DNA from: Roseivirga spongicola
GTDB taxonomy: Bacteria > Bacteroidota > Bacteroidia > Cytophagales > Cyclobacteriaceae
Length of the DNA stretch: 64,000 nt
NCBI RefSeq assembly: GCF_001592965.1
Contig: NZ_LRPC01000001.1
Coordinates: forward strand, 682,001 to 746,000
Reading direction: 5' to 3'
Shown in pieces: positions 3,975 through 59,359 of the stretch. The notes beneath the pieces are model-generated. The model saw nothing but the letters and a program-made list of their open reading frames with translations. It did no database searches and was not told the DNA's origin. Made by a program: the position numbers and the translations under genes. The number at the start of each line of letters is the position of its first letter. The first letter of the stretch is position 1.

Positions 3975-4580
3975 TTGAACTTCCCACCAAAAATTGTTGA
4001 AGATGCAATAGAAGAAATCTCAAAGCTGCCCGGTATCGGTAAAAAAACAGCTTTAAGATTAGTCTTGCATTTGCTCAAACAAGACAAAGATGCCACCTCT
4101 AACCTTACTGCGGCACTTTCTCACTTACGAGAAGATGTGCAGTATTGCGGCACCTGTCATATGATTTCAGATACTACAGATTGTACTTGTAGAACCATCA
4201 CAAGAGATTTAGCCACCATTTGTGTAGTGCAGGACACTCCAGATGTTATGGCTATTGAAAATACGCATCAATACAAAGGCCTATATCATGTACTGGGAGG
4301 CGTTATATCTCCAATAGAAGGCATTGGACCAGAAGATTTACATATTGAATCTTTGTTTAAGCGAATAGATACAAGTGAGCCTAAAATTGAAGAGGTAATT
4401 TTAGCGTTGAACCCAACAATGGAAGGTGATACTACAGCCTTTTATATCACTAAAAAATTGAAGGCTTTAGGCATAAAAGTCACTACTATTGCAAGAGGAA
4501 TACCTATTGGAGGAGAACTAGAGTATGCCGATGAAGTTACTCTGGGTAGAAGTATTTTGACAAGAACGATATACGATTAG
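3975..4580 (+). CDS. recR: Recombination protein RecR
   Basis: A 201-residue RecR, acting with RecO/RecF to load RecA at gaps. It has a helix-hairpin-helix motif (SKLPGIGKKTALRL, about residues 16-29), a four-cysteine zinc site (C58, C61, C70, C72), a TOPRIM domain beginning ATICVVQDTPDVMAIE and the C-terminal LGRSILTRTIYD. The start is TTG: translation from it gives MNFPPKIVEDAIEEISKLPGIG, exactly the family N-terminus, and no ATG fits. The last cysteine pair is C-x-C rather than the usual C-x-x-C. The aminotransferase gene begins 5 bases after the stop. Confidence 0.95.
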   Translation: MNFPPKIVEDAIEEISKLPGIGKKTALRLVLHLLKQDKDATSNLTAALSHLREDVQYCGTCHMISDTTDCTCRTITRDLATICVVQDTPDVMAIENTHQYKGLYHVLGGVISPIEGIGPEDLHIESLFKRIDTSEPKIEEVILALNPTMEGDTTAFYITKKLKALGIKVTTIARGIPIGGELEYADEVTLGRSILTRTIYD

Positions 4581-8773: not shown

Positions 8774-10009
8774 ATGAAGAAGCTAATAGTAATTTTACTG
8801 TTGGTTTGTGCTCAAGCACAGGCTCAGTATACCTTTAAAACAGTGGTAGACACCCCAAATCCTCCAAAAATCAACGTCTTAATAGGTGATCTGGGAATCA
8901 ATTCTAATATTAATCAGCTTGCAACTCTTTTGGCGTTTGACAAAAGTGAAAACAGTTTTGCCTTCTATGCCAATGGTAAAGAGTTATTTCAAAACCCTGA
9001 TATTTCTGTAAAGACGAGGTTTCAGAACCAGAATATTCAGGTGGAAATTAGTGGACTCTCTAAGTATGAACTAGTCCTTCTGCAGAACACAAAGTCTAAT
9101 GTTTATCTAAGTCCTAAAAGTGACATAATCCTTACATTAAATGGCGGAACAACAGCAACCATTGAAAAAGCGGATTTAGAAACGCAGTCTTTAGGAAAGA
9201 TTAGTATTGACAAAAGCATCATGGATATGTATTTCTCTGCCTTTGGAGGAGATTATGCCTATGCTAACAACTCCTTCAATTGGAGCTTTACTCCAAAAAG
9301 TGAAAGCGATATAGACAATATGGAGTTGAATGCCGACTTCAGCTTTCACCAGAGTTATTCATTAGGTAGTGGTAAGGCTAAAAAATCTGATGCAAAACCC
9401 ATTGTGTTTTACGCAAAGGGAAGAGTTAGCACAAATGCTAAAGATTCGCTCAACTACCTTTATGTGTACCCTGTCAACTTCAATATTTCTGGAGAAAGTG
9501 ACGCTCAAATAATGGCTAGGTTAGGGGTGGAAGGAAATCAAACATTCACCAGTGGCAGAGTTGCCTTCAATTTTTCTTATGAGAAGCTGATCAGCAACTT
9601 GGTAAACTTAACCTACGGAAGCAATAGATTGCGCTTAAAGCCAGTGCTTAATGTTGGAGGAAAGATTTATAATGAGTTCGAAAATATGCGGATGGGAGCT
9701 GAGTCTGAAAATGAGTTCTCTGGCCAAGTATATGCCAACTTGTACTACAACATTCCCGTGTTCGATAATTACTCTTTAATTCTAGAGTCAAATGCATATT
9801 ACGATTTCAGTGAATCGATAAACCCTGACCAGAAAATAAAGCTGAATTATAGCATTGCACTTGGAGTAGAGTTACCTAAAACTCCATTTAAAACGCTCTT
9901 CAAGTATAAGGATGGTCAAGTCGATGTTAATAACTTAGATGACAGTAATCTGACTATTGGTTTACTAACAGACTTTGAGTCATTAATTGGCGCAACAAAA
10001 AAGAAGTAG
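8774..10009 (+). CDS. Exported beta-rich protein, possibly outer-membrane barrel
   Basis: A 411-residue protein with a clear signal peptide (MKKLIVILLLVCAQAQAQ, cleavage after AQAQ about residue 18). The rest alternates polar and hydrophobic residues in long strands with many Asn, Ser, Tyr and Phe, as in outer-membrane or periplasmic beta proteins; the C-terminal half (about 250-400) looks most barrel-like. It does not end in a classic aromatic residue but in KKK after a final strand. The gene starts 3 bases after the small gene before it. No family is recognised. The genes at 7170, 8471 and 8774 form a same-strand cluster ending at a large inverted repeat. Confidence 0.6.
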   Translation: MKKLIVILLLVCAQAQAQYTFKTVVDTPNPPKINVLIGDLGINSNINQLATLLAFDKSENSFAFYANGKELFQNPDISVKTRFQNQNIQVEISGLSKYELVLLQNTKSNVYLSPKSDIILTLNGGTTATIEKADLETQSLGKISIDKSIMDMYFSAFGGDYAYANNSFNWSFTPKSESDIDNMELNADFSFHQSYSLGSGKAKKSDAKPIVFYAKGRVSTNAKDSLNYLYVYPVNFNISGESDAQIMARLGVEGNQTFTSGRVAFNFSYEKLISNLVNLTYGSNRLRLKPVLNVGGKIYNEFENMRMGAESENEFSGQVYANLYYNIPVFDNYSLILESNAYYDFSESINPDQKIKLNYSIALGVELPKTPFKTLFKYKDGQVDVNNLDDSNLTIGLLTDFESLIGATKKK

Positions 10010-10023
10010 CACCAAAAGAAAAG

Positions 10024-10162
10024 AGGTGTCTCAAAAGTTACGATTATCGTCATTCCCAGCTTGACTGAGAATCTCTATTGGCCTTTGGAGCCACTTTTGG
10101 GAGATTCCCTCCCGATATGTCGGTACGGGGTCGGGAATGAGAGTTAGCTTTTGAGACCGCCT
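10024..10162. repeat. 139-bp palindromic intergenic element
   Basis: The outer arms are AGGTGTCTCAAAAG (10024-10037) and CTTTTGAGACCGCCT (10148-10162), which pair over 14 positions with one bulge. Inside are a second inverted pair, GTCATTCCC and GGGAATGA, and a short CCGATATGTCGG-type hairpin. It lies between convergent genes and could act as a bidirectional terminator. The GTCATTCCC...GGGAATGA core resembles repeats scattered through many bacterial intergenic regions. Confidence 0.7.
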
Positions 10163-10175
10163 TTTACATTACCTC

Positions 10176-11492
10176 TTAATTCACCTTCTCAGCATAGTCT
10201 ACCACTAATCTGCTCATGAGTTTGATACCGTCTAGCATTCCGGCATCATCTACATAAAAGTCTGGCGTATGATGTGGAGCAGCTTTTGCAGGGTCTTGGC
10301 CTTTTGGCATTCCACCTAAAAAGAAGAACAGCCCCGGTATTTCTTGCTGAAAGAATGAGAAGTCTTCTGCCCCAGTAATGGCGTTCATATTTGAGTTGAC
10401 GTTTTCGGCACCAATAACTTCAACAAATGTACTGCCCATCATTGCCGTAAGCTGAGGGTCATTGTAAGTTACAGGATAACCCTGATCGATAGAAAGCGTA
10501 GCTTCCGCACCATTGCTTTCGGCTGTATTTTGCACTATGGTTCTGAATCGCTCGAAAAGTGTTTCCCTCATATCTGCATCTAAAGTTCTGATGGTGCCCA
10601 CCATATTTACCTCTTCAGGTATAATGTTACTTCTTACACCTCCTTCAATTTTACCGAAGGTGAGAACGGCAGCAGCGGTGGTGAGCGGTAAACTTCTACT
10701 AACAATAGTCTGAGCATTATTGATGATCTGTGCCGCGGTTACTACAGGGTCTATACCTGTCCAGGGCGTTGAACCATGCGTTTGTTTCCCTTTAATTTTG
10801 ATTTCGAAGCTATTAACGGCAGCCATAATGCCATTGGGTCTGTACATAACTTTACCAACTTCAGTTTGTGAGTTGATGTGCAGACCGAAAATCACATCCA
10901 TTCCTTTGGTTACTCCTTCCTTCACCATAAGTGCTGCCCCACCTTCTTCACCAGCAGGAGCACCTTCTTCCGCAGGTTGAAATACGAACTTTACAGTGCC
11001 TTGAATATCCTTTTTTACCCGACTTAACACTTCGGCAACACCCATTAGAATGGCCACATGCGTATCGTGACCACAAGCATGCATTACAGGAACGGGTTCG
11101 CCATTATATTCTCCCATTTGTTTAGAAGCCCATGGCAGATCTACCCTTTCCTTTACAGGAAGCCCATCCATATCGGCACGTAAGCCAATAGTAGGCCCTG
11201 GCTTCCCTCCTTTCAGAATTCCTACTACTCCTGTTTTGGCAACTCCTTCTTGAACCTCAATACCTAAGCTTTTAAGGTGTGCGGCTATATAAGCTGCGGT
11301 TTTGAATTCGCGATTAGAGAGTTCAGCGTTTTCGTGAATCCAATGTCTCCATTCGATTACTTTAGGCTCAACTTCTTTGGCAAGCTCTAGCACTTCGTCT
11401 GAAAGTTTGGGTTTAGAATCGTTGCTAGGCGAGATGGAGGTTAGTCCGAAAAAAAGGAAAGAAAGGCAAAACAGGGATAAGGTCTTCTTCAT
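10176..11492 (-). CDS. Exported M20-family amidohydrolase
   Basis: A 438-residue zinc amidohydrolase of the M20D/hippurate hydrolase group that cleaves N-acyl or aminoacyl amides. An N-terminal signal peptide (MKKTLSLFCLSFLFFGLTS) puts it in the periplasm or outside. Metal and catalytic motifs are RADMDGLPV, MHACGHDTHVAI, PAEEGAPAGEEGG, and the C-terminal ITGAEDFSFF with a late HHTPDF histidine. The start at 11492 (MKKTL) is preferred to the upstream in-frame ATG at 11540, which would add 16 residues before the signal peptide. It converges on the palindromic element after 10009. Confidence 0.9.
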   Translation of the reverse strand: MKKTLSLFCLSFLFFGLTSISPSNDSKPKLSDEVLELAKEVEPKVIEWRHWIHENAELSNREFKTAAYIAAHLKSLGIEVQEGVAKTGVVGILKGGKPGPTIGLRADMDGLPVKERVDLPWASKQMGEYNGEPVPVMHACGHDTHVAILMGVAEVLSRVKKDIQGTVKFVFQPAEEGAPAGEEGGAALMVKEGVTKGMDVIFGLHINSQTEVGKVMYRPNGIMAAVNSFEIKIKGKQTHGSTPWTGIDPVVTAAQIINNAQTIVSRSLPLTTAAAVLTFGKIEGGVRSNIIPEEVNMVGTIRTLDADMRETLFERFRTIVQNTAESNGAEATLSIDQGYPVTYNDPQLTAMMGSTFVEVIGAENVNSNMNAITGAEDFSFFQQEIPGLFFFLGGMPKGQDPAKAAPHHTPDFYVDDAGMLDGIKLMSRLVVDYAEKVN

Positions 11493-11791
11493 AATACTAA
11501 GGTTGAATATGGAATATACTTCAATCGAAGAGAAGAACAAAGAATATGCAGCGGGTTAAATAACCTGAAACGACAGCTTTTGAGGAGTCTTAATACACCT
11601 GCCATAAGCTGTGCCTCCATAGGGTCTCCAGAAATTAATTGTGAAGACACAATCAATGGCGGTTTTCCGTATCTAAAAGTTACATTTTCCCGTTCAGAGT
11701 CTATCGCTGAGCAGACTGGGTTAAGACCGATCATTAGGAGACTCTCATGGAGATAATGAGGAAGAGACTCCTTAAATCTCGTTGATGAAAA
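11493..11791. other. 299-bp gap without a convincing gene
   Basis: This stretch separates two minus-strand genes. A minus-strand frame of 81 codons (11734 to 11489) crosses it and runs into the M20 signal-peptide region, but it has an odd composition, no RBS, no promoter element and no family resemblance, so it is not called. No hairpin with a T-run or TAnnTTTG element was found in it. Confidence 0.4.
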
Positions 11792-12202
11792 CTATGGATT
11801 CAGGACTGAAACTTTGTTTAGTGTAACCTTATAGGTTTTTGACTTTCGATCATTAAAAACACCATACTTAACGTTTAAAGCCAAATACTTTTCGTTTGTT
11901 TCCACTGTATATTGAGGATTAATAAAACCACCTATAAGGAATAAACTCTGAGCTGGATATTCATCATATTCAGAAACAGCTAGGTAAAAGGAGTAACTTA
12001 TTTCGTGTCCTCCTGAAATACCAGCTGAACCCGGAGGATTCGATTTTTTAAATATGCTCAATGAGATATCTTCATTGGTATATCGGTTTTCCGTTTTCAG
12101 AGAGTTGAAAAGTGAAATCAGTTCAGAGTCTTCTATCTTCTCAACTGTAGGTTCAGAAGAGATTAGTTGAGTTGTAATTAAAAGAAGACTCAGGAAACTC
12201 AT
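11792..12202 (-). CDS. Small secreted hypothetical protein
   Basis: A 136-residue protein with a short hydrophobic N-terminus ([16 protein letters not shown]) that looks like a signal peptide, followed by a soluble, strand-rich domain. No family recognised. Its start overlaps the hemE stop as ATGA, so it is translated from the hemE transcript. There is no visible functional link to heme synthesis. Confidence 0.65.
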
Positions 12203-13248
12203 ATTTCGGTAGACCTCAACTTAGCGCTATACTCCTTCACCGTATTAATAAAGACTTTAACCTTATTTGGGTCGATATCTGGGTAAACACCATGGCCAAG
12301 GTTGGCAATGTGTCTGCTGGTACCGAACTCATCGAGCATCTTCTTCGTGGCTTTTTCAATTTCCACATCTGGAGCATAAAGCGCACAAGGGTCTAAATTA
12401 CCTTGGAGGGTTTTGTTCTCACCAATCAGTCTGCGAGAGTTTTGAATGTCCATACTCCAGTCTAAACCGATGGTTTCACAATTCAAGTGTCTCATTTCGG
12501 AACGGGCAAAGAAAGCGCCTTTACTAAACACGGTTACAGGAACTTCGGTAATCGCATCACAGATTTCAGCAATGTACTTCATTGAGAATCTCTGGTATTG
12601 CTCTGGCCCAAGAATTCCGGCCCAAGAATCGAAAACCTGCACAATGTCTGCTCCGGCCTTTATCTGTGCTTTCAGATATTCGATGGTTGAATCTGTTATC
12701 AGCTTCAAAAGCTGATCGGCCATCATCGGGTCGTTGTACAACATTCTCCTGGCTTTGGAGAAAGTTTTACTGCCATGTCCTTCTACCATATAGCAGAAGA
12801 TAGTCCAAGGAGCACCAGCAAAACCAATTAAAGGCACTCTGCCATTAAGCTCTTTTTTGGTGATCTTGATAGCCTCAAGTACATAACCCAAGTCGCTTTT
12901 AGCATCAGCTTTTTTAAGTGCCTTTAAATCTTCATCGGTAGAAATGGTTTTAGGGAATCTTGGCCCTTTTTTCTCAACCATTTCATATGGAAGACCCATG
13001 GCTTCCGGAATTACAAGGATATCTGAGAAGATAATGGCTGCATCAACACCCAGAATGTCTACAGGCTGAATAGTAACTTCTGCCGCTAGTTCAGGCGTTT
13101 GAGCCAATTCAATAAAACCGCTAAGTCTATTTCTTACTGCTCTATATTCAGGAAGAATTCTACCGGCCTGGCGCATAAGCCAAACCGGGGTTCTTTCCAC
13201 TTTTTCACCCTTTGCCGCTCTGATCAGTAGATCGTTCTGTAATTCCAT
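12199..13248 (-). CDS. hemE: Uroporphyrinogen decarboxylase
   Basis: A 349-residue cytoplasmic enzyme of heme synthesis that converts uroporphyrinogen III to coproporphyrinogen III. Signature motifs are [17 protein letters not shown] near residues 21-37 and [17 protein letters not shown] near 140-156, with FDSWAG and the C-terminal [12 protein letters not shown]. The start [15 protein letters not shown] matches the family N-terminus. A -7 promoter element sits only 4 bases before the ATG, suggesting a leaderless or nearly leaderless message. The 3' end overlaps the small secreted gene. Confidence 0.97.
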
Positions 13249-52975: not shown

Positions 52976-53917
52976 ATGTTCGATAAATTAAAAAGACCCT
53001 TTAAAGACTTTCTTGAACTTATTGAATCCTTAAAAACAGAAACAAAGTTTTCTCCATCAGATCCATTACGATTCACATCTATTCGCTATCTCAATGGCCA
53101 CGAAGTTCTCGACAGAGACCCTGAGCGATTCAGAAGAGCTCTGATGATTCAAGGTATTTCTGAAGATCAAATAAAATTTGGCCAGCACCTACAATTTACC
53201 AATGAGCTAAGAATTATTGATAATAAAGTGGTAGAGGTCATTGAACACTGCGCGGATCAGGCTGAGAGTGTTGGACAGAATGTAGAATATGATCTACCTA
53301 TTGAGGACTGGCCTGACCATAAGTATTTTTTTCTTATTCCAGATAAGGGAGGTCCACATCAGATTGGAGGTGAATGCCCGAAACCAATTGTATTTGACAG
53401 TAAATATGGCTTTAGTTTCATAGCATCTATAGACGGTACCGATCCATTTTTTAGTTGGGTTGAAACGGACGAATTGAACATCTTTTATCCTCTCAATACC
53501 TGCTGCCTTAGCGGGCTATTTATCGATTGGAAAAATGAAAAAGAACCAATTGTGCTCAACCCAGAAGTAATGACCGATGCTTGGAGGACTAATTATGTTG
53601 ATGGTTCAGAGGTTGGAGTATTTAAAGGAATCAACTATAAAAGCACCGATGACGTTGATGTTAACCTATTAAAGGATGAATTTGGAGATACTCACATTTG
53701 CGGAGTTCCTATGTGGTATCAGGCACCTGATATTCCTGTTTGCCCTAAAACAGGAAATGTGATGAGATATGTTACCACCATTAAGTCAAACGTTAAAAAC
53801 GAACTTATTGAAGGCACGTCCGTCTTCGGAGATTATTTAACCTTTATGGACGTGGGCTTCCTTTATGTTTTCTGGGAGCCCACGTCCAATATAATGTATC
53901 TAACGGCTCAATGTTAG
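52976..53917 (+). CDS. Cytoplasmic protein, DUF1963/YwqG-like
   Basis: A 313-residue protein with no signal or membrane span. The combination HQIGGECPKP, CGVPMWYQAPDIPVCPKTGNVMRY and FMDVGFLYVFWEPT resembles the DUF1963 (YwqG) family, where a zinc-ribbon-like CP-x2-G-x2-M segment precedes the final strands. Function unknown. It is convergent with the amidohydrolase gene, 3 bases away. Confidence 0.6.
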   Translation: MFDKLKRPFKDFLELIESLKTETKFSPSDPLRFTSIRYLNGHEVLDRDPERFRRALMIQGISEDQIKFGQHLQFTNELRIIDNKVVEVIEHCADQAESVGQNVEYDLPIEDWPDHKYFFLIPDKGGPHQIGGECPKPIVFDSKYGFSFIASIDGTDPFFSWVETDELNIFYPLNTCCLSGLFIDWKNEKEPIVLNPEVMTDAWRTNYVDGSEVGVFKGINYKSTDDVDVNLLKDEFGDTHICGVPMWYQAPDIPVCPKTGNVMRYVTTIKSNVKNELIEGTSVFGDYLTFMDVGFLYVFWEPTSNIMYLTAQC

Positions 53918-53920
53918 GGC

Positions 53921-54634
53921 TTAGCACAAAGCTGCTTCTTCGCTCATTACCGATCTCACAGCGCTTTGCAAAGCCTTTTTAATTTCTTCCATTTGCGGCT
54001 TACTATGGTGCTTGTTGTTCACCTCTATTTCGATGCCTGAGTAATTTTGTGGCCTGAACTCCTTTCTTAAGTAAGTGGTAAAGCCATCGGCAGTGCCCAA
54101 GTATGGGTAGTTGTGTTTGGTAACAAACTGAGGGGCAAAAATACCCAACTCATTTACCAACTGCTTCGATATTTTAGCCTCAGGCTCTCTCTTTTCATCG
54201 TAAAGAATACCAATGTCTGCCGAACGTACTTCGCCTTTCAAAACAGGGGTAAAAGTATGAATGGAAAGGTGAACCACCGAGTCCGTTTTTCGGGCTCTTT
54301 CTTTAATCCATTCATACACTTGCTGCCTGTAAGCGGTGTAGTATTTCTTCATCAGAAACTTCTTTACCACTGGGTCCAGCGTTTTGCTGAACTCAGAGTA
54401 AAGTTCTGGGTTGAATTTTGACCTGTTCGAATCGATCAATAGCCTCGAAACCACGTTTACGTAAAGAGGAAGCTTTAGCGAGTCGGCCAGGTTTTCGGCC
54501 AAAGCGCCTGCTCCAATATCAATACCTCTGTGCGTATCCAATACGGCTTCATTACCCAAAAATAAGTAGCGATAGTTTGCAGGCACAAAGTTGCCTGCAT
54601 GCTCGCATGTGATTAAAAAGCTTCTTCTAGACAT
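53921..54634 (-). CDS. N-formylglutamate amidohydrolase-like protein
   Basis: A 237-residue zinc hydrolase-like protein. The CEHAGNFVPANYR, DTHRGIDIGA and LSIHTFTPVL motifs are those of the N-formylglutamate amidohydrolase family (PF05013), with His/Glu metal ligands. It is the fourth gene of a tight operon; its start lies within the last 22 bases of the GCS2-type gene. It may release a formyl or acyl group, or cleave an amide made by the upstream ligases. Confidence 0.85.
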   Translation of the reverse strand: MSRRSFLITCEHAGNFVPANYRYLFLGNEAVLDTHRGIDIGAGALAENLADSLKLPLYVNVVSRLLIDSNRSKFNPELYSEFSKTLDPVVKKFLMKKYYTAYRQQVYEWIKERARKTDSVVHLSIHTFTPVLKGEVRSADIGILYDEKREPEAKISKQLVNELGIFAPQFVTKHNYPYLGTADGFTTYLRKEFRPQNYSGIEIEVNNKHHSKPQMEEIKKALQSAVRSVMSEEAALC

Positions 54635-55881
54635 TCCCTAAGCATTTGATTGTTCTCTAAGCAATCGCACAATTCAGAATAGACCATTTTAAGGTTCTCA
54701 AATTCTAGGTTAGTTTCTAAGGCATTTAGAATTCGGGTAGAGAGCGTTCCTTCATCAAAAAGAAGAGTCAGCTCATCTCTCCAATGGTCTAAGGCCTGAG
54801 GATACTTCCTATCTATTTTTCTGGAAATAAAATGCCAGATTTCTACGGCTGTCATTTCATCTACTGCATTTAAGCCAAAGGCCTTTAAGTAATCGGTATT
54901 ATCTATAACCGTGTGTTCTCCACTTTTTATTACCTGCTTGAAAATGGCTGCTAGGCTTTCGGTTTTGAACTTTTTCTGCTCTTCTAGTGGAACAAAGTAT
55001 TCTTCTACCAAAAGTTTCAGTGCATTGATGATGAGTGATGCAATAGCCAAATCTGACTCTGGACACTCTTGAACGTCTAGCACTCTAATTTCAATAGCCC
55101 CACGATCGAAGCGCGCAATGGCACCTCTAGAGTTCAACCAAATAGGCTCTAAAATCCCTTCTGGATCATGAGGTTTGATGTCATTGGCTATCTGATCGAA
55201 AATTTGGCTATAATAATCTTCTTTACTGAACACAGCTTCAGGAATTACCTGTCCGGTAAGAATTGGTACTGCCTTTTGATTCTTTCTGTAGTAATCCAAT
55301 CGCTTGTCCCAGTAGCCAGTGTCTTTACCATCCAAAATGGCTGAGCTGGCCGAAAGAGCCGGCATAATTGGAAGCAACAAACGAATGGCAGCGTGCAGCT
55401 TAGAAAACTCATCATCGCCATGGAATGGTAAGTTGATGTGCATACTTTGCAGGTTGCTCCAACCGTGACCTTTGCAATCGAAGATGCGGTCGTAGGTAGC
55501 GTATATCTCGGCATTGTCGTGCGGCCAACGTACCGTTTCTGTCTCTGGGTTCATCCATGGATGAGCTGCAGAAGGCATAAGTTGAGCCTTGAACTCAGCC
55601 AGCACTCTGTTCATTTGCTGAATGGCTTCCTCAAAATCGGCAGCTAATTGAACTAAATCGTCTGTTGGAGCAGAGCACTTAAGCTCAATTACGTGCAAGG
55701 CCAATTCATTAGACCAAGTGATATTGCCGAAAGTAACTTCATTGGTGATTTCACCAGCTAATGATTTCAAAACCTCATCGGCAATAGGTTTCACGTTGAG
55801 TGTTTCTGTATCAACAATCATGTATTCCAGCTCAATTCCATAGGCCTGGAATAGGTGCAAGTGGTTATCTTCTACCTTCAT
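54613..55881 (-). CDS. GCS2-family carboxylate-amine ligase
   Basis: A 422-residue member of the glutamate-cysteine ligase 2 family (PF04107): YGIELEYMIVD at the N-terminus is the Mg-binding Glu signature, followed by AHPWMNPE, SMHINLPF and the ARFDRGAIEIRVLDVQ strand. These enzymes form gamma-glutamyl or other peptide-like amide bonds with ATP. It overlaps the ATP-grasp gene by 4 bases and the hydrolase gene by 22 bases. Confidence 0.85.
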   Translation of the reverse strand: MKVEDNHLHLFQAYGIELEYMIVDTETLNVKPIADEVLKSLAGEITNEVTFGNITWSNELALHVIELKCSAPTDDLVQLAADFEEAIQQMNRVLAEFKAQLMPSAAHPWMNPETETVRWPHDNAEIYATYDRIFDCKGHGWSNLQSMHINLPFHGDDEFSKLHAAIRLLLPIMPALSASSAILDGKDTGYWDKRLDYYRKNQKAVPILTGQVIPEAVFSKEDYYSQIFDQIANDIKPHDPEGILEPIWLNSRGAIARFDRGAIEIRVLDVQECPESDLAIASLIINALKLLVEEYFVPLEEQKKFKTESLAAIFKQVIKSGEHTVIDNTDYLKAFGLNAVDEMTAVEIWHFISRKIDRKYPQALDHWRDELTLLFDEGTLSTRILNALETNLEFENLKMVYSELCDCLENNQMLRECLEEAF

Positions 55882-57329
55882 TGCTTTATTTTTACTCGCT
55901 CCATCAGGGTTTCCATTATGGTTTCGTAGAGCGTGTTTTTTAAAACTTTATCTTCAATTCCTGCATCGAGGTTTGGGTTATCGTTTACCTCAATTACATA
56001 GAATTTCTTATTTACTTCTTTAATGTCTACTCCGTAAAGGCCATTACCAATTAGCTTGGTGGCTTTGGTGGCAGTAGCAATAAGTGCCTTTGGCACTTCT
56101 TCTACCGGGTAGGTTTCGGCTTTACCCTCCTGAGCCTTCCCGCTCTTTTTCCATTCAATAATTTGCCAATGATTTCTGGCCATAAAGTACTTGCATACGT
56201 ACAAGGGCTCTCCATTGAAAATTCCCACACGCCAATCGAAGTCGGTCGGCATAAATTCCTGCGCAATCAATAACTCAGAGCCTTTAAAAAAGCCTTTGAG
56301 TAACTCATTAAACTCTTCTTCATTTTGAACCTTCTTGACTCCTTTAGAAAAGGCACCATCGGGTTCTTTTAAGATGAATGGGAAGCCAATTTTCTCAATA
56401 GCAGCCATTGGATTCTCTTTAGAAATGATGGCTGCCTTGGGCGTATTTATACCATGGTTTCTCATCAGTTCATTCAAGTACACCTTGTTGGTGCAGCGCA
56501 TTATGGAAACCGGATCGTCAATTACCACCAAGCCCTCTGACTGCGCTTTTTTAGCAATGCGGAAGGTGTGGTTGTTCACGTTTGTGGTTTCTCTTATGAA
56601 GAGTGCATCGAACTGGTTGATCTTACCATAGTCGTTTTTGGTAATAATCTCCGTGTTGAAGCCCACTTCTTCAGCAGCTTTTACAAACTTCTGAAGCGCC
56701 TTTGCATTACTAGGAGGGTTCGGGTCGTCTGGGTTCACCAATATGGCAAGGTCGAACCTTCTTCTCTGGTGATTCTTTCTCACCACCTTTTTGTTGCTCA
56801 AAAACAACCCAAGGAACGATTGAAGCTTTTGCCTTTCTTCTCCTGTAAGGTCATAAATGTTCATTGGCCTTAGGTTTTCAAGCACCCATTTTTCGCGTTT
56901 TACAAAAACGGCTTTAAGTATTGGCGATTGAAATAGGTTGAACAGCAGCATACCCAAACTAGACAGCGCTAATTCATCTGTGTATCCAAAATATATCTTG
57001 AATTCTAGTTTAGCTTCTGAACTGCTGCCCAAACATTTCTGTATGATGGCATCGAAGTCTTGAGCATCATCTTTAATCATTGAAGGAAACCTGAAGTCTT
57101 GAATTGTGGCGACTTCTGGTAAAACCTTATGCCCTCTTGCTTCTGCCAAAAGCGACACATAATAGCCAACACTTTGGTATTGATAGGATTTACATAGGTT
57201 GATCACTTTTGTATTCTTCCCGAATTGACCAGCTGACTCAGATAGGTAATCTTGTGCAGCTATGACATCTACATTGGGAATATCCAACTGCCACTTATGT
57301 GGCTTCTCAATAACAATTAGTTTGTTCAT
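55878..57329 (-). CDS. RimK-like ATP-grasp ligase with RLAN domain
   Basis: A 483-residue ATP-grasp amide ligase. About 160 N-terminal residues form an RLAN-type domain (INLCKSYQYQSVGYYVSLLAEARGHKVLPEV), then a pre-ATP-grasp domain and the ATP-grasp fold with PFILKEPDGAFSKGVKKV and metal-binding ELNDNPN-type motif EVNDNPNLDAG near residue 450. It should form an amide bond between a carboxylate and an amino group, perhaps extending a peptide. It overlaps the C39-like gene upstream by 4 bases. Confidence 0.85.
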   Translation of the reverse strand: MNKLIVIEKPHKWQLDIPNVDVIAAQDYLSESAGQFGKNTKVINLCKSYQYQSVGYYVSLLAEARGHKVLPEVATIQDFRFPSMIKDDAQDFDAIIQKCLGSSSEAKLEFKIYFGYTDELALSSLGMLLFNLFQSPILKAVFVKREKWVLENLRPMNIYDLTGEERQKLQSFLGLFLSNKKVVRKNHQRRRFDLAILVNPDDPNPPSNAKALQKFVKAAEEVGFNTEIITKNDYGKINQFDALFIRETTNVNNHTFRIAKKAQSEGLVVIDDPVSIMRCTNKVYLNELMRNHGINTPKAAIISKENPMAAIEKIGFPFILKEPDGAFSKGVKKVQNEEEFNELLKGFFKGSELLIAQEFMPTDFDWRVGIFNGEPLYVCKYFMARNHWQIIEWKKSGKAQEGKAETYPVEEVPKALIATATKATKLIGNGLYGVDIKEVNKKFYVIEVNDNPNLDAGIEDKVLKNTLYETIMETLMERVKIKQ

Positions 57330-58054
57330 TTTTTTGGTCTAATAATGAGCAGGTTGGCATCGTATGTTACCATACCCAGCATGATTGAGTTGATTAATCG
57401 GTGAATATCTACTTCGTAATATTGGCTTGATGCCATTGGGTTATTCTTCAATGGATCTGCAATTGAGACAGTGTTCTCATCTGCAGAAATACCTTGTACC
57501 ACCACAAAGTGACCTGTCGGCAAGCCCTTTAGGTCATCATACTCAACTTTCAAATCTCCGATTTCTCTTGGGCTCTGGTACAAGTAGGTTGCACTTAAGC
57601 CAGTAAGAATCGGTTGATCTTGAAATAAGATAGACTTAATTAAGTCTGGTGTGAGGTCTTTAAACTTTATCTTTCCACCAAGGCTTAAGAACTTCTGATA
57701 AGCAGTAGAAGCAAACCTAATTTTCCTTTGTGGCTTGTAATGACATTGCATTGCTAGCTTGTTCACTAAATCGGTTTCTTCATCGGCAAACCATGAAGGG
57801 TCAAAAATCTGTAGGTTATAGGTGTATATGGTGGCCTCATAACCTCTTTTGAGGGCATGGTTGCCAAGGTTTACAGCCAAGGTTCCACCAGATTTGAGTT
57901 GTTTTACCTGCTTAATTACCTCGCCTAATTGAATGTTATCTCCATAATACTGATATACGGCATGCAAGCTGGTAGGCCCGCAGGTAACATCGTTTGGCTG
58001 AGGGAGAATATTAATATCTAGTAGTGCTTTTTCTGAAAGAAGCATCTTATTCAT
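57326..58054 (-). CDS. C39-like cysteine peptidase domain protein
   Basis: A 242-residue papain-like protein without a signal peptide. The triad can be read as C25 in DVTCGPTSLHAVYQYYG, H182 in LPTGHFVVVQG and D200 in SIADPLKN, as in the C39 peptidase family. It may trim or cleave a peptide made by the downstream ligases or act as a transpeptidase. It is the first gene of the operon, divergent from the ECF sigma gene only 40 bases away. Confidence 0.8.
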   Translation of the reverse strand: MNKMLLSEKALLDINILPQPNDVTCGPTSLHAVYQYYGDNIQLGEVIKQVKQLKSGGTLAVNLGNHALKRGYEATIYTYNLQIFDPSWFADEETDLVNKLAMQCHYKPQRKIRFASTAYQKFLSLGGKIKFKDLTPDLIKSILFQDQPILTGLSATYLYQSPREIGDLKVEYDDLKGLPTGHFVVVQGISADENTVSIADPLKNNPMASSQYYEVDIHRLINSIMLGMVTYDANLLIIRPKK

Positions 58055-58094
58055 ACTTTAGTGAAGATTAGACGCGTCCAAAACGCAAAGTCAC
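58055..58094. promoter_or_regulatory. Divergent control region with GACGCGTC palindrome
   Basis: A 40-bp gap between the amidoligase operon and the ECF sigma gene. It contains the perfect 8-bp palindrome GACGCGTC (58071-58078), conspicuous in A/T-rich DNA. No TAnnTTTG element faces either gene. Confidence 0.4.
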
Positions 58095-58685
58095 ATGTCT
58101 TCAGAGAAAATATTCAAGGATAATATTAAGCCCCAATTGACTGACGAAGAGTTAGTTCACTTTCTTCAGAATGGAGGTCCGGAGCGGTATTTCTCTATCC
58201 TAGCGGATAGGTACCAAGACTATGTAAAGAAGAAATGTAAGGGTTATGTAAAGAGCGATGATGAAGCAGAAGACCTAAGCCAAGAGGTATTCATTAAGGT
58301 ATTTATGCAGTTGAGTAACTTTAGGTCTGAAGCAAAATTTAAAACTTGGCTTTACACCATAGTTTATCATACCTGCATAGACTATTTAAGAAAGAAGAAG
58401 AAAAGTACCCATCAGGTAATATCAGATAAGCTCTCGTCTGAATTAGAAGATGTAATAGATGCCGATGAAGTAGATAAGGAGTCACTGATGAATGCCTTAG
58501 AGCTGCTGCTTGAGCAAATTACTCCAGAGGAGAAACTTTTACTACTTCTGAAATACAAAGAAAAGCAAAGTCTTCAGGCCATAACGGCTTCCATGAATAT
58601 CTCGGAAAGTGCGGCAAAGATGAGGTTACTAAGAGCTAAGGAGAAAATCAACAAACTCTATGAAAAGCAACTGAAGGATAACTAA
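58095..58685 (+). CDS. ECF-type RNA polymerase sigma factor
   Basis: A 196-residue sigma-70-family ECF factor: region 2 with DDEAEDLSQEVFIKVF and FKTWLYTIVYHTCIDYLRK, region 4 with LLLKYKEKQSLQAITASMNISESAAKMRLLRAKEKI. No anti-sigma gene follows; its end overlaps the convergent rsmI by 4 bases. Because it diverges from the amidoligase operon within 40 bases, it may control that operon. Confidence 0.92.
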   Translation: MSSEKIFKDNIKPQLTDEELVHFLQNGGPERYFSILADRYQDYVKKKCKGYVKSDDEAEDLSQEVFIKVFMQLSNFRSEAKFKTWLYTIVYHTCIDYLRKKKKSTHQVISDKLSSELEDVIDADEVDKESLMNALELLLEQITPEEKLLLLLKYKEKQSLQAITASMNISESAAKMRLLRAKEKINKLYEKQLKDN

Positions 58686-59359
58686 CTCTTCCCTTCTATT
58701 ACCATTACGAACTCACCTTTCACTCCGTTTTTTGTGAAGTGCTCAACAAGCTCAGTAAATGTACCCCTTACGGTTTCTTCAAACATTTTGGAGATTTCAC
58801 GAGAGACGGAAGCCTGACGATCTCCTAAGAATTCTTTGAGCTGCTCAAGCGATTTAATCAGTCTATGAGGAGACTCGTAGAGAATGATAGTTCTTTCTTC
58901 TTCAGCCAGCTTCTTCAGCCGGGTTTGGCGGCCTTTTTTGTGTGGAAGAAAGCCTTCGAACACGAACTTATCGGAAGGTAGGCCTGAGTTTACTAAGGCA
59001 GGGACAAAAGCTGTGGCTCCTGGAAGGCAATTCACTTCTAAACCTGCTGCAATGGTTTCTCTTACCAAAAGAAAACCAGGGTCTGAGATAGATGGGGTTC
59101 CTGCATCAGAGATCAAGGCAAAGGTTTCTCCAGCATTCATTCGGTCTACCAGCTTGGTAGCAGCCTGGTGTTCATTAAAAATATGATAGCTCTGAAGCGG
59201 TTTGCTAATGTTATGGTGCTTTAACAGTTTACCAGAAGTTCTGGTGTCTTCAGCTAAAATAACATCAACCTCGTTTAACACCTTGATGGCTCTTAACGTA
59301 ATGTCATCTAAATTACCAATAGGGGTAGGTACTAAGTAGAGGTTGATTTTATCGGGCAT
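58682..59359 (-). CDS. rsmI: 16S rRNA (cytidine(1402)-2'-O)-methyltransferase
   Basis: A 225-residue tetrapyrrole-methylase-fold rRNA methyltransferase. It starts LYLVPTPIGNLDDITLRAIKVLNEVDVILAEDTRTS, the RsmI signature, with ALISDAGTPSISDPGFLLV. It methylates C1402 of 16S rRNA with RsmH. It overlaps the pterin dehydratase gene by 1 base and is the last of a four-gene minus-strand run. Confidence 0.95.
   Translation of the reverse strand: MPDKINLYLVPTPIGNLDDITLRAIKVLNEVDVILAEDTRTSGKLLKHHNISKPLQSYHIFNEHQAATKLVDRMNAGETFALISDAGTPSISDPGFLLVRETIAAGLEVNCLPGATAFVPALVNSGLPSDKFVFEGFLPHKKGRQTRLKKLAEEERTIILYESPHRLIKSLEQLKEFLGDRQASVSREISKMFEETVRGTFTELVEHFTKNGVKGEFVMVIEGKS

Follow-up and report, generated by a model that had tools for sequence, protein, structure and literature searches.

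The genome of Roseivirga spongicola carries, within a stretch of 64,000 nucleotides (contig NZ_LRPC01000001.1, positions 682,001 to 746,000; the whole stretch is referred to here as the window), a reverse-strand operon of four genes that joins two ligases to a cysteine enzyme and an amidohydrolase-like protein and lies divergent to the gene of an extracytoplasmic function (ECF) sigma factor. The first gene of the operon (57326–58054, 242 amino acids) encodes a C39/papain-like cysteine enzyme (Pfam Peptidase_C39_2, E = 9e-10). It is followed by the gene of a ligase (55878–57329, 483 amino acids) in which an RLAN domain (residues 25–170, 56820–57257; E = 1.1e-43) precedes an ATP-grasp part of the RimK/LysX type (RimK, 1.4e-11), by the gene of a GCS2-family carboxylate-amine ligase (54613–55881, 422 amino acids; GCS2, 3.5e-26), and by that of an FGase-family, zinc amidohydrolase-like protein (53921–54634, 237 amino acids; FGase, 1.3e-18). 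Consecutive genes overlap by 4, 4, and 22 bases. The ECF gene (58095–58685, forward strand, 196 amino acids; Sigma70_r2, 1.2e-18, plus Sigma70_r4) starts 40 bases away from the start of the C39 gene, and a candidate ECF-type promoter, GTGACTTT-N12-CGTC, occupies 58071–58094 of this spacer and reads into the C39 gene on the reverse strand, with the −35 element at 58087–58094 and the −10 element at 58071–58074. The original prediction gave the same overlaps and the same 40-base gap, exact to the base, and stated that no anti-sigma gene accompanies the ECF gene. The latter is upheld: the neighbor beyond is a convergent gene with a TP_methylase domain (58682–59359), and no cognate anti-sigma gene adjoins the ECF gene within the window, the rest of the genome not having been searched for one. 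The loci nearest to it come from a genome bin of the Cytophagia, at 92% identity, and from Roseivirga species, at 89% and lower.

All Pfam assignments in the window (C39, RLAN, RimK, GCS2, FGase, and Sigma70_r2) exceed their gathering cut-offs, and the expected catalytic positions are invariant in the aligned cassette proteins. In the ATP-grasp ligase (RLAN, 149 bits against a cut-off of 25; RimK, 44.8 against 21), K321, D435, E447, and N449 are invariant across 41 aligned sequences, and we take them to be the ATP-grasp lysine and the metal ligands of this family. The whole RLAN protein was folded from the 41-sequence alignment with a mean predicted local distance difference test (pLDDT) score of 85.8, and the predicted fold over residues 190–483 is nearest to ArgX/LysX (Z about 28) and RimK (Z about 27); the N-terminal RLAN part lies outside the coverage of the listed PDB matches. 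The GCS2 protein (92.7 bits against 21 in Pfam) has seven positions invariant in 19 aligned sequences (E17, E19, H148, N150, E264, R266, and D269). Its best match among the NCBIfam models of YbdK and glutamate-cysteine ligase reaches 63.3 bits against a cut-off of 176.4, and, being so far below these cut-offs, the protein is assigned by sequence to a separate subfamily; as a single sequence it matches the YbdK structure 1r8g at 0.007. The FGase-like protein (68.4 bits against 28.9) has a solved relative, 2odf (profile E = 1.8e-34), and presumably binds zinc, as is usual for its family. The C39-like protein retains a papain-like Q-C-H-D active site (Q19, C25, H182, and D200, invariant in 18 aligned sequences). 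Its predicted structure (mean pLDDT 76, 9-sequence alignment) resembles C39 peptidase domains (Z up to 13.5, PCAT1), the pseudomurein endoisopeptidase PeiR (12.9), and phytochelatin synthase (11.9), and more weakly CtaG (9.5) and CcbD (9.0). CtaG is termed a peptidyl transferase (PMC6772006). The C39-like fold may accordingly accommodate a protease or a transferase, as judged from the model. A leader-cleaving ATP-binding cassette (ABC) exporter is not indicated: the 242-residue protein stands alone without an ABC domain in Pfam, and the cassette encodes no exporter.

The same gene set recurs in distant bacteria. GCS2-subfamily loci were collected by profile search (E up to 1e-60), with matches in 30 of 395 genomes from the phylum to which the window belongs, 16 of 369 from the class of a Thiocystis, 5 of 50 from the phylum of a Denitrovibrio bin, and 15 of 188 (16 places) from the phylum of a Myxococcales bin; the RLAN gene was found in 24 of a set of 99 genomes, that of R. 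spongicola included. A partner census was then taken of 67 loci from the four phyla, a partner being counted within 5 kb on the same strand. RLAN stands beside GCS2 in 64 of these loci, C39 near GCS2 in 55, and FGase in 51; all four genes are present in 43, and the order C39-RLAN-GCS2-FGase is kept in 42 of the 43. The co-occurrence of the four families as neighbors is thereby confirmed, and their recurrence and order rule out chance clustering. A 9-kb record of Legionella adelaidensis likewise shows RLAN-GCS2-FGase, and in phages there are only partial ATP-grasp matches, none covering more than 45% of the query. The four proteins diverge in step with one another, their pairwise distances giving r of 0.58–0.81 (57 loci, uncorrected for the species tree; four genome-repeating loci, L113 and L115–L117, were omitted), and phyla are intermixed in a tree of the four joined proteins. 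The block therefore seems to move as a unit, that is, the four genes seem to form one cassette transferred as a whole. Its recurrence in four phyla, together with this apparent transfer, suggests that the enzyme set probably confers a portable benefit. The GCS2 gene of one Denitrovibrio genome bin (L019:9455–10700) contains two in-frame TAG codons, which may reflect decay, an assembly error, or stop read-through.

RLAN and GCS2 are separate genes in the window. Fused into a single open frame of 943–1027 codons, they occur as one two-ligase chain only in L243–L246, four genomes from the same phylum as the Myxococcales bin. In L245 and L246, the frame comprises both domains and little else, and the linker is readable; in L243, the frame continues past the RLAN start to the contig end; and in L244, a different frame holds the beginning of RLAN. 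A chain that unites two ligases, as bifunctional glutathione synthetase does, favors consecutive ligations, and by this analogy the fusion is the best single hint at the chemistry of the cassette; it furthermore offers a single natural protein for finding the product in vitro. Every enzyme of the cassette comes from a large family that has routine members, and C39 and FGase are absent at some loci, which would suit four separate housekeeping activities that merely share an operon. We regard this explanation as highly improbable, given the order conserved in samples from four phyla, the correlated divergence, and the RLAN-GCS2 fusion. The same three observations support the joint pathway of the original prediction. 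Its further suggestion that a product is made, trimmed, and removed stays unproven, since C39 or FGase is absent from certain loci and the C39-like enzyme may be a transferase as well as a protease.

The ECF sigma factor exceeds the cut-offs of region 2 (67.1 bits against 24) and region 4 (PF04545, 25.1 against 24.1). Orthologues were sought within the 99-genome set, in which 12 genomes, the own genome included, hold a match of at least 50% identity and 18 any match at 1e-30. These numbers, and a divergent position next to C39 in 2 of the 67 sampled loci, rule out the ECF gene as a universal partner of the cassette. The supposition that it always stands next to the operon thus fails; control of the operon within the ECF-bearing group is supported by comparative promoter evidence. 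The motif was derived by comparing the divergent spacer of eight ECF-bearing loci, which have the element GTGACTTT-N12-CGTC in common, oriented into C39 (with N13 in L112). An exact-motif genome search placed it ahead of the operon in all 10 genomes searched; G006, too, bears it at the operon, and in the incomplete genome G026 the C39 gene, the ECF gene, and the motif share one small contig. The motif is present at the operon in all 12 genomes with an ECF match of at least 50% identity. Four of these (G004, G006, G014, and G026) are independent of motif discovery, and in three of the four the motif still precedes the operon at a distance of 173 kb (G004), 80 kb (G006), or 111 kb (G014) between the ECF gene and the operon. 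A mismatch scan was possible for 85 of 92 cassette loci: 15 loci (11 genomes) have no mismatch, none has one, and 70 have two to five. Three to five mismatches are seen in the 12 loci fetched from the 99-genome set that lack an ECF orthologue of at least 50% identity (L114 with a short upstream stretch only). For the congener G015, whose genome includes the RLAN gene, the ECF search gave no match at 1e-30, and its locus (2411 bases) lies outside the motif scan. There is thus strong comparative evidence, drawn from sequence, for ECF-directed transcription of the operon from this element in this Cytophagales group. Two further candidate sites were discarded, i.e., a one-mismatch site inside a gene (window 4460–4483) and a site in G054 at 5632353. 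At four loci (L110, L120, L156, and L157), the region downstream of the cassette holds, on the opposite strand, a more distant ECF gene together with a small possible membrane protein that matches no family above cut-off.

A putative regulon was outlined with the relaxed pattern GTGACYTT-N12-CGTC; with the N13 spacing, 3 sites appeared in 11 genomes, and N12 was used instead. The genus of the window (seven genomes) contains 18 relaxed sites against 3 of the reversed control, and all 18 lie 17–80 bases before a start codon in the correct orientation, the start being taken after the site. The targets include the operon (10 sites) and one family of coiled-coil lipoproteins (8 sites) of about 250 residues, labeled as lipoproteins from an N-terminus judged by eye; a ninth homologue (L273) has no site, and 4 of the 12 genomes have no homologue. 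Three sites precede an operon of a lipoprotein and a YkuD L,D-transpeptidase (lipoproteins 58–76% identical, YkuD in 3 of 3). Single sites stand before a Scaffold/YkuD L,D-transpeptidase gene (G016), an MscS-family channel gene in the genome of the window that is followed by ion-channel and HlyIII genes, a DUF155 gene (G069), and a Usp gene (G054). The operon is probably part of a regulon for envelope stress, because its promoter type recurs before genes of coiled-coil lipoproteins and L,D-transpeptidases, and the theme of this regulon would be envelope or osmotic stress. The sigma promoter thereby supplies a physiological setting for the product hunt. A CRISPR-like array (clustered regularly interspaced short palindromic repeats; L264:4960–6252, 19 copies, 66-base spacing) adjoins the site-bearing MscS gene.

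This company of genes also bears on a cell-wall route, in which the enzyme set would edit or re-ligate gamma-D-Glu muropeptides in the cytoplasm during envelope stress. The same promoter type stands before L,D-transpeptidases and lipoproteins, and the resemblance of the C39-like fold to PeiR would be in keeping with this. Co-regulation is no proof of a common substrate, however; 65 of the 67 sampled loci have no divergent ECF gene, and no Mur-ligase domain occurs among the Pfam matches of the window. We consider such processing unlikely.

The best reading, to which we assign a probability of about one half, is that two ligases act as in GshF to make a small glutamyl peptide, which is finished by the C39-like enzyme and the zinc amidohydrolase, all encoded by an ECF-controlled cassette. 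The two ATP-dependent ligases would act in turn on one substrate, in either order: the GCS2 enzyme would link an amine with a glutamate-like carboxylate, the RLAN/RimK-LysX-like ATP-grasp enzyme would attach a further residue, and the result would be a short glutamyl peptide. The C39-like cysteine enzyme could then cut this peptide or hand on its acyl part, as phytochelatin synthase does with glutathione, and the FGase-like enzyme could take off an N-acyl or terminal group or recycle the product. Joint transcription with coiled-coil lipoproteins, L,D-transpeptidases, and, in the genome of the window, the mechanosensitive channel, all under the ECF sigma factor, would place synthesis most likely under envelope or osmotic stress, with the peptide serving as a protectant or in relation to the cell wall. 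Only tentatively is this reading extended to a further widespread small glutamyl peptide in addition to glutathione and its relatives, made by GCS2 and RLAN, matured by a cysteine transpeptidase, and used, under the control of a dedicated sigma factor, in the envelope or osmotic stress defense of these Bacteroidota.

Two known routes serve as models for this glutamyl peptide. Similar to GshF, the cassette would have a glutamate-amine ligase and an ATP-grasp ligase acting in turn from one protein or operon. GshF belongs to a different family of glutamate-cysteine ligases, and its domain order is the reverse of RLAN-GCS2; here, RLAN/ATP-grasp comes first and GCS2 second, with no indication of a cysteine substrate. 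Furthermore, in the pathway of glutathione and phytochelatin synthase (Alr0975, 2bu3), a ligase pair is likewise followed by a papain-like cysteine enzyme, which forms an acyl-enzyme with a tripeptide, and the C39-like model superimposes on the acyl-enzyme with glutathione at Z 11.9 and a root-mean-square deviation of 3.4 over 149 residues. Unlike that system, the cassette gives no indication of a thiol and contains an extra FGase-like enzyme, and its C39-like protein fits C39 domains better. Operons of amidoligases with RLAN/ATP-grasp, GCS2, and peptidase neighborhoods were reportedly predicted to make peptides by Iyer and colleagues in 2009; the present analysis adds the fusion, the census, and the sigma factor with its promoter and regulon. 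The literature search, at the level of titles and abstracts and of passages from PMC4431377, PMC2922099, PMC6772006, and PMC7367687, yielded no description of this gene set.

A protein rather than a peptide could be the substrate. RLAN ligase would then add glutamate-type residues and GCS2 a residue in gamma linkage, the tag being removed by FGase and the C39-like enzyme. RimK, LysX, and ArgX act on proteins, RimK modifying ribosomal protein S6 and LysX/ArgX modifying LysW, and the C-terminal half of the RLAN protein has the fold of these enzymes, which are known as a family to act on protein termini; the additional RLAN domain could dock a protein, and paired hydrolases suit reversible tagging. 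The cassette ligase differs from them in its N-terminal RLAN domain and a VIEVNDNP motif, and no LysW or S6 gene is seen in the cassette. More generally, no acceptor protein is encoded there and no acceptor or tag gene is conserved; the genes around the cassette are shared within the genus and vary outside it, and the apparent block transfer between phyla would be harder for an enzyme tied to one host protein. A precursor of a graspetide or another ribosomally synthesized and post-translationally modified peptide (RiPP) has no room in the window cassette, where the genes overlap, the 40 upstream bases contain the promoter, and 3 bases remain downstream; any such precursor would have to be unlinked. 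A Pup_ligase domain of the pupylation enzymes PafA/Dop found no Pfam match at E up to 1 among the window proteins. We consider protein modification doubtful on balance.

Several observations weigh against the glutamyl-peptide reading. Because RimK, LysX, and ArgX have protein substrates, their similarity favors a tag as much as a metabolite. The GCS2 profile has no match among solved structures at E 0.01, and glutamate as the donor is for that reason taken from the family. C39 peptidase domains outscore phytochelatin synthase as fold matches to the C39-like protein, and in Foldseek no match to its predicted structure reached E 0.001. C39 is missing from 12 and FGase from 16 of the 67 loci, some of them at contig ends and others seemingly real absences; these steps are therefore not obligatory, and the two ligases alone form the core. 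The fused GCS2 domains are more divergent (282–309 bits) than the other matches of the Myxococcales phylum (at least 380 bits). Regarding the promoter, G043, one of the genomes behind the 12 fetched loci with three to five mismatches, combines an operon that lacks the motif with an ECF match of lower identity (42%), and the exact pattern gives 15 sites in 10 genomes against 17 for the reversed control. The relaxed pattern gives 25 sites in 11 genomes against 17, with 7 against 14 outside the genus. As site counts alone do not rise above the reversed control, the case is built on positions, and outside the genus, where sites are fewer than in the control, only recurring targets count.

Related loci and occasional partners were additionally observed. 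GNAT-type RLAN loci, mostly in Proteobacteria, resemble the cassette in that a C39-like (DUF3335) domain adjoins the RLAN ligase in their fused forms, and differ from it in having GNAT in place of GCS2 and FGase; 67 of 68 such loci match one GNAT-DUF3335 query, for which a bare GNAT also counts. DUF155 (RMND1/Sif2 family) is an occasional fifth partner of the cassette. With one DUF155 protein as the query, it was found near 15 of 90 GCS2-type loci in three phyla (L105, L109–L112, L120, L156, L157, L214–L217, and L228–L230) and near none of 68 GNAT-type RLAN loci (1185 and 1070 kb searched, respectively); the 15 include close relatives (L156/L157, L216/L217, and L228–L230), and the 90 contain genome repeats (L113, L115, and L117), none with a DUF155 match. 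In the window, a protein of 313 amino acids that has no match in Pfam or NCBIfam is encoded on the opposite strand at 52976–53917, 3 bases past the FGase gene, and a homologue is present in L002. An RLAN ligase without GCS2 adjoins an AstE_AspA (aspartoacylase-type) gene at L107:6036–8608 and also in L118, L119, and L237, and an AstE_AspA gene is found near three GCS2-bearing loci as well. Finally, in L122 the cassette is immediately followed by another amide system (9381–12398), in which a GshB-like ATP-grasp gene is accompanied by an FGase-MATCAP gene that is split across two frames.

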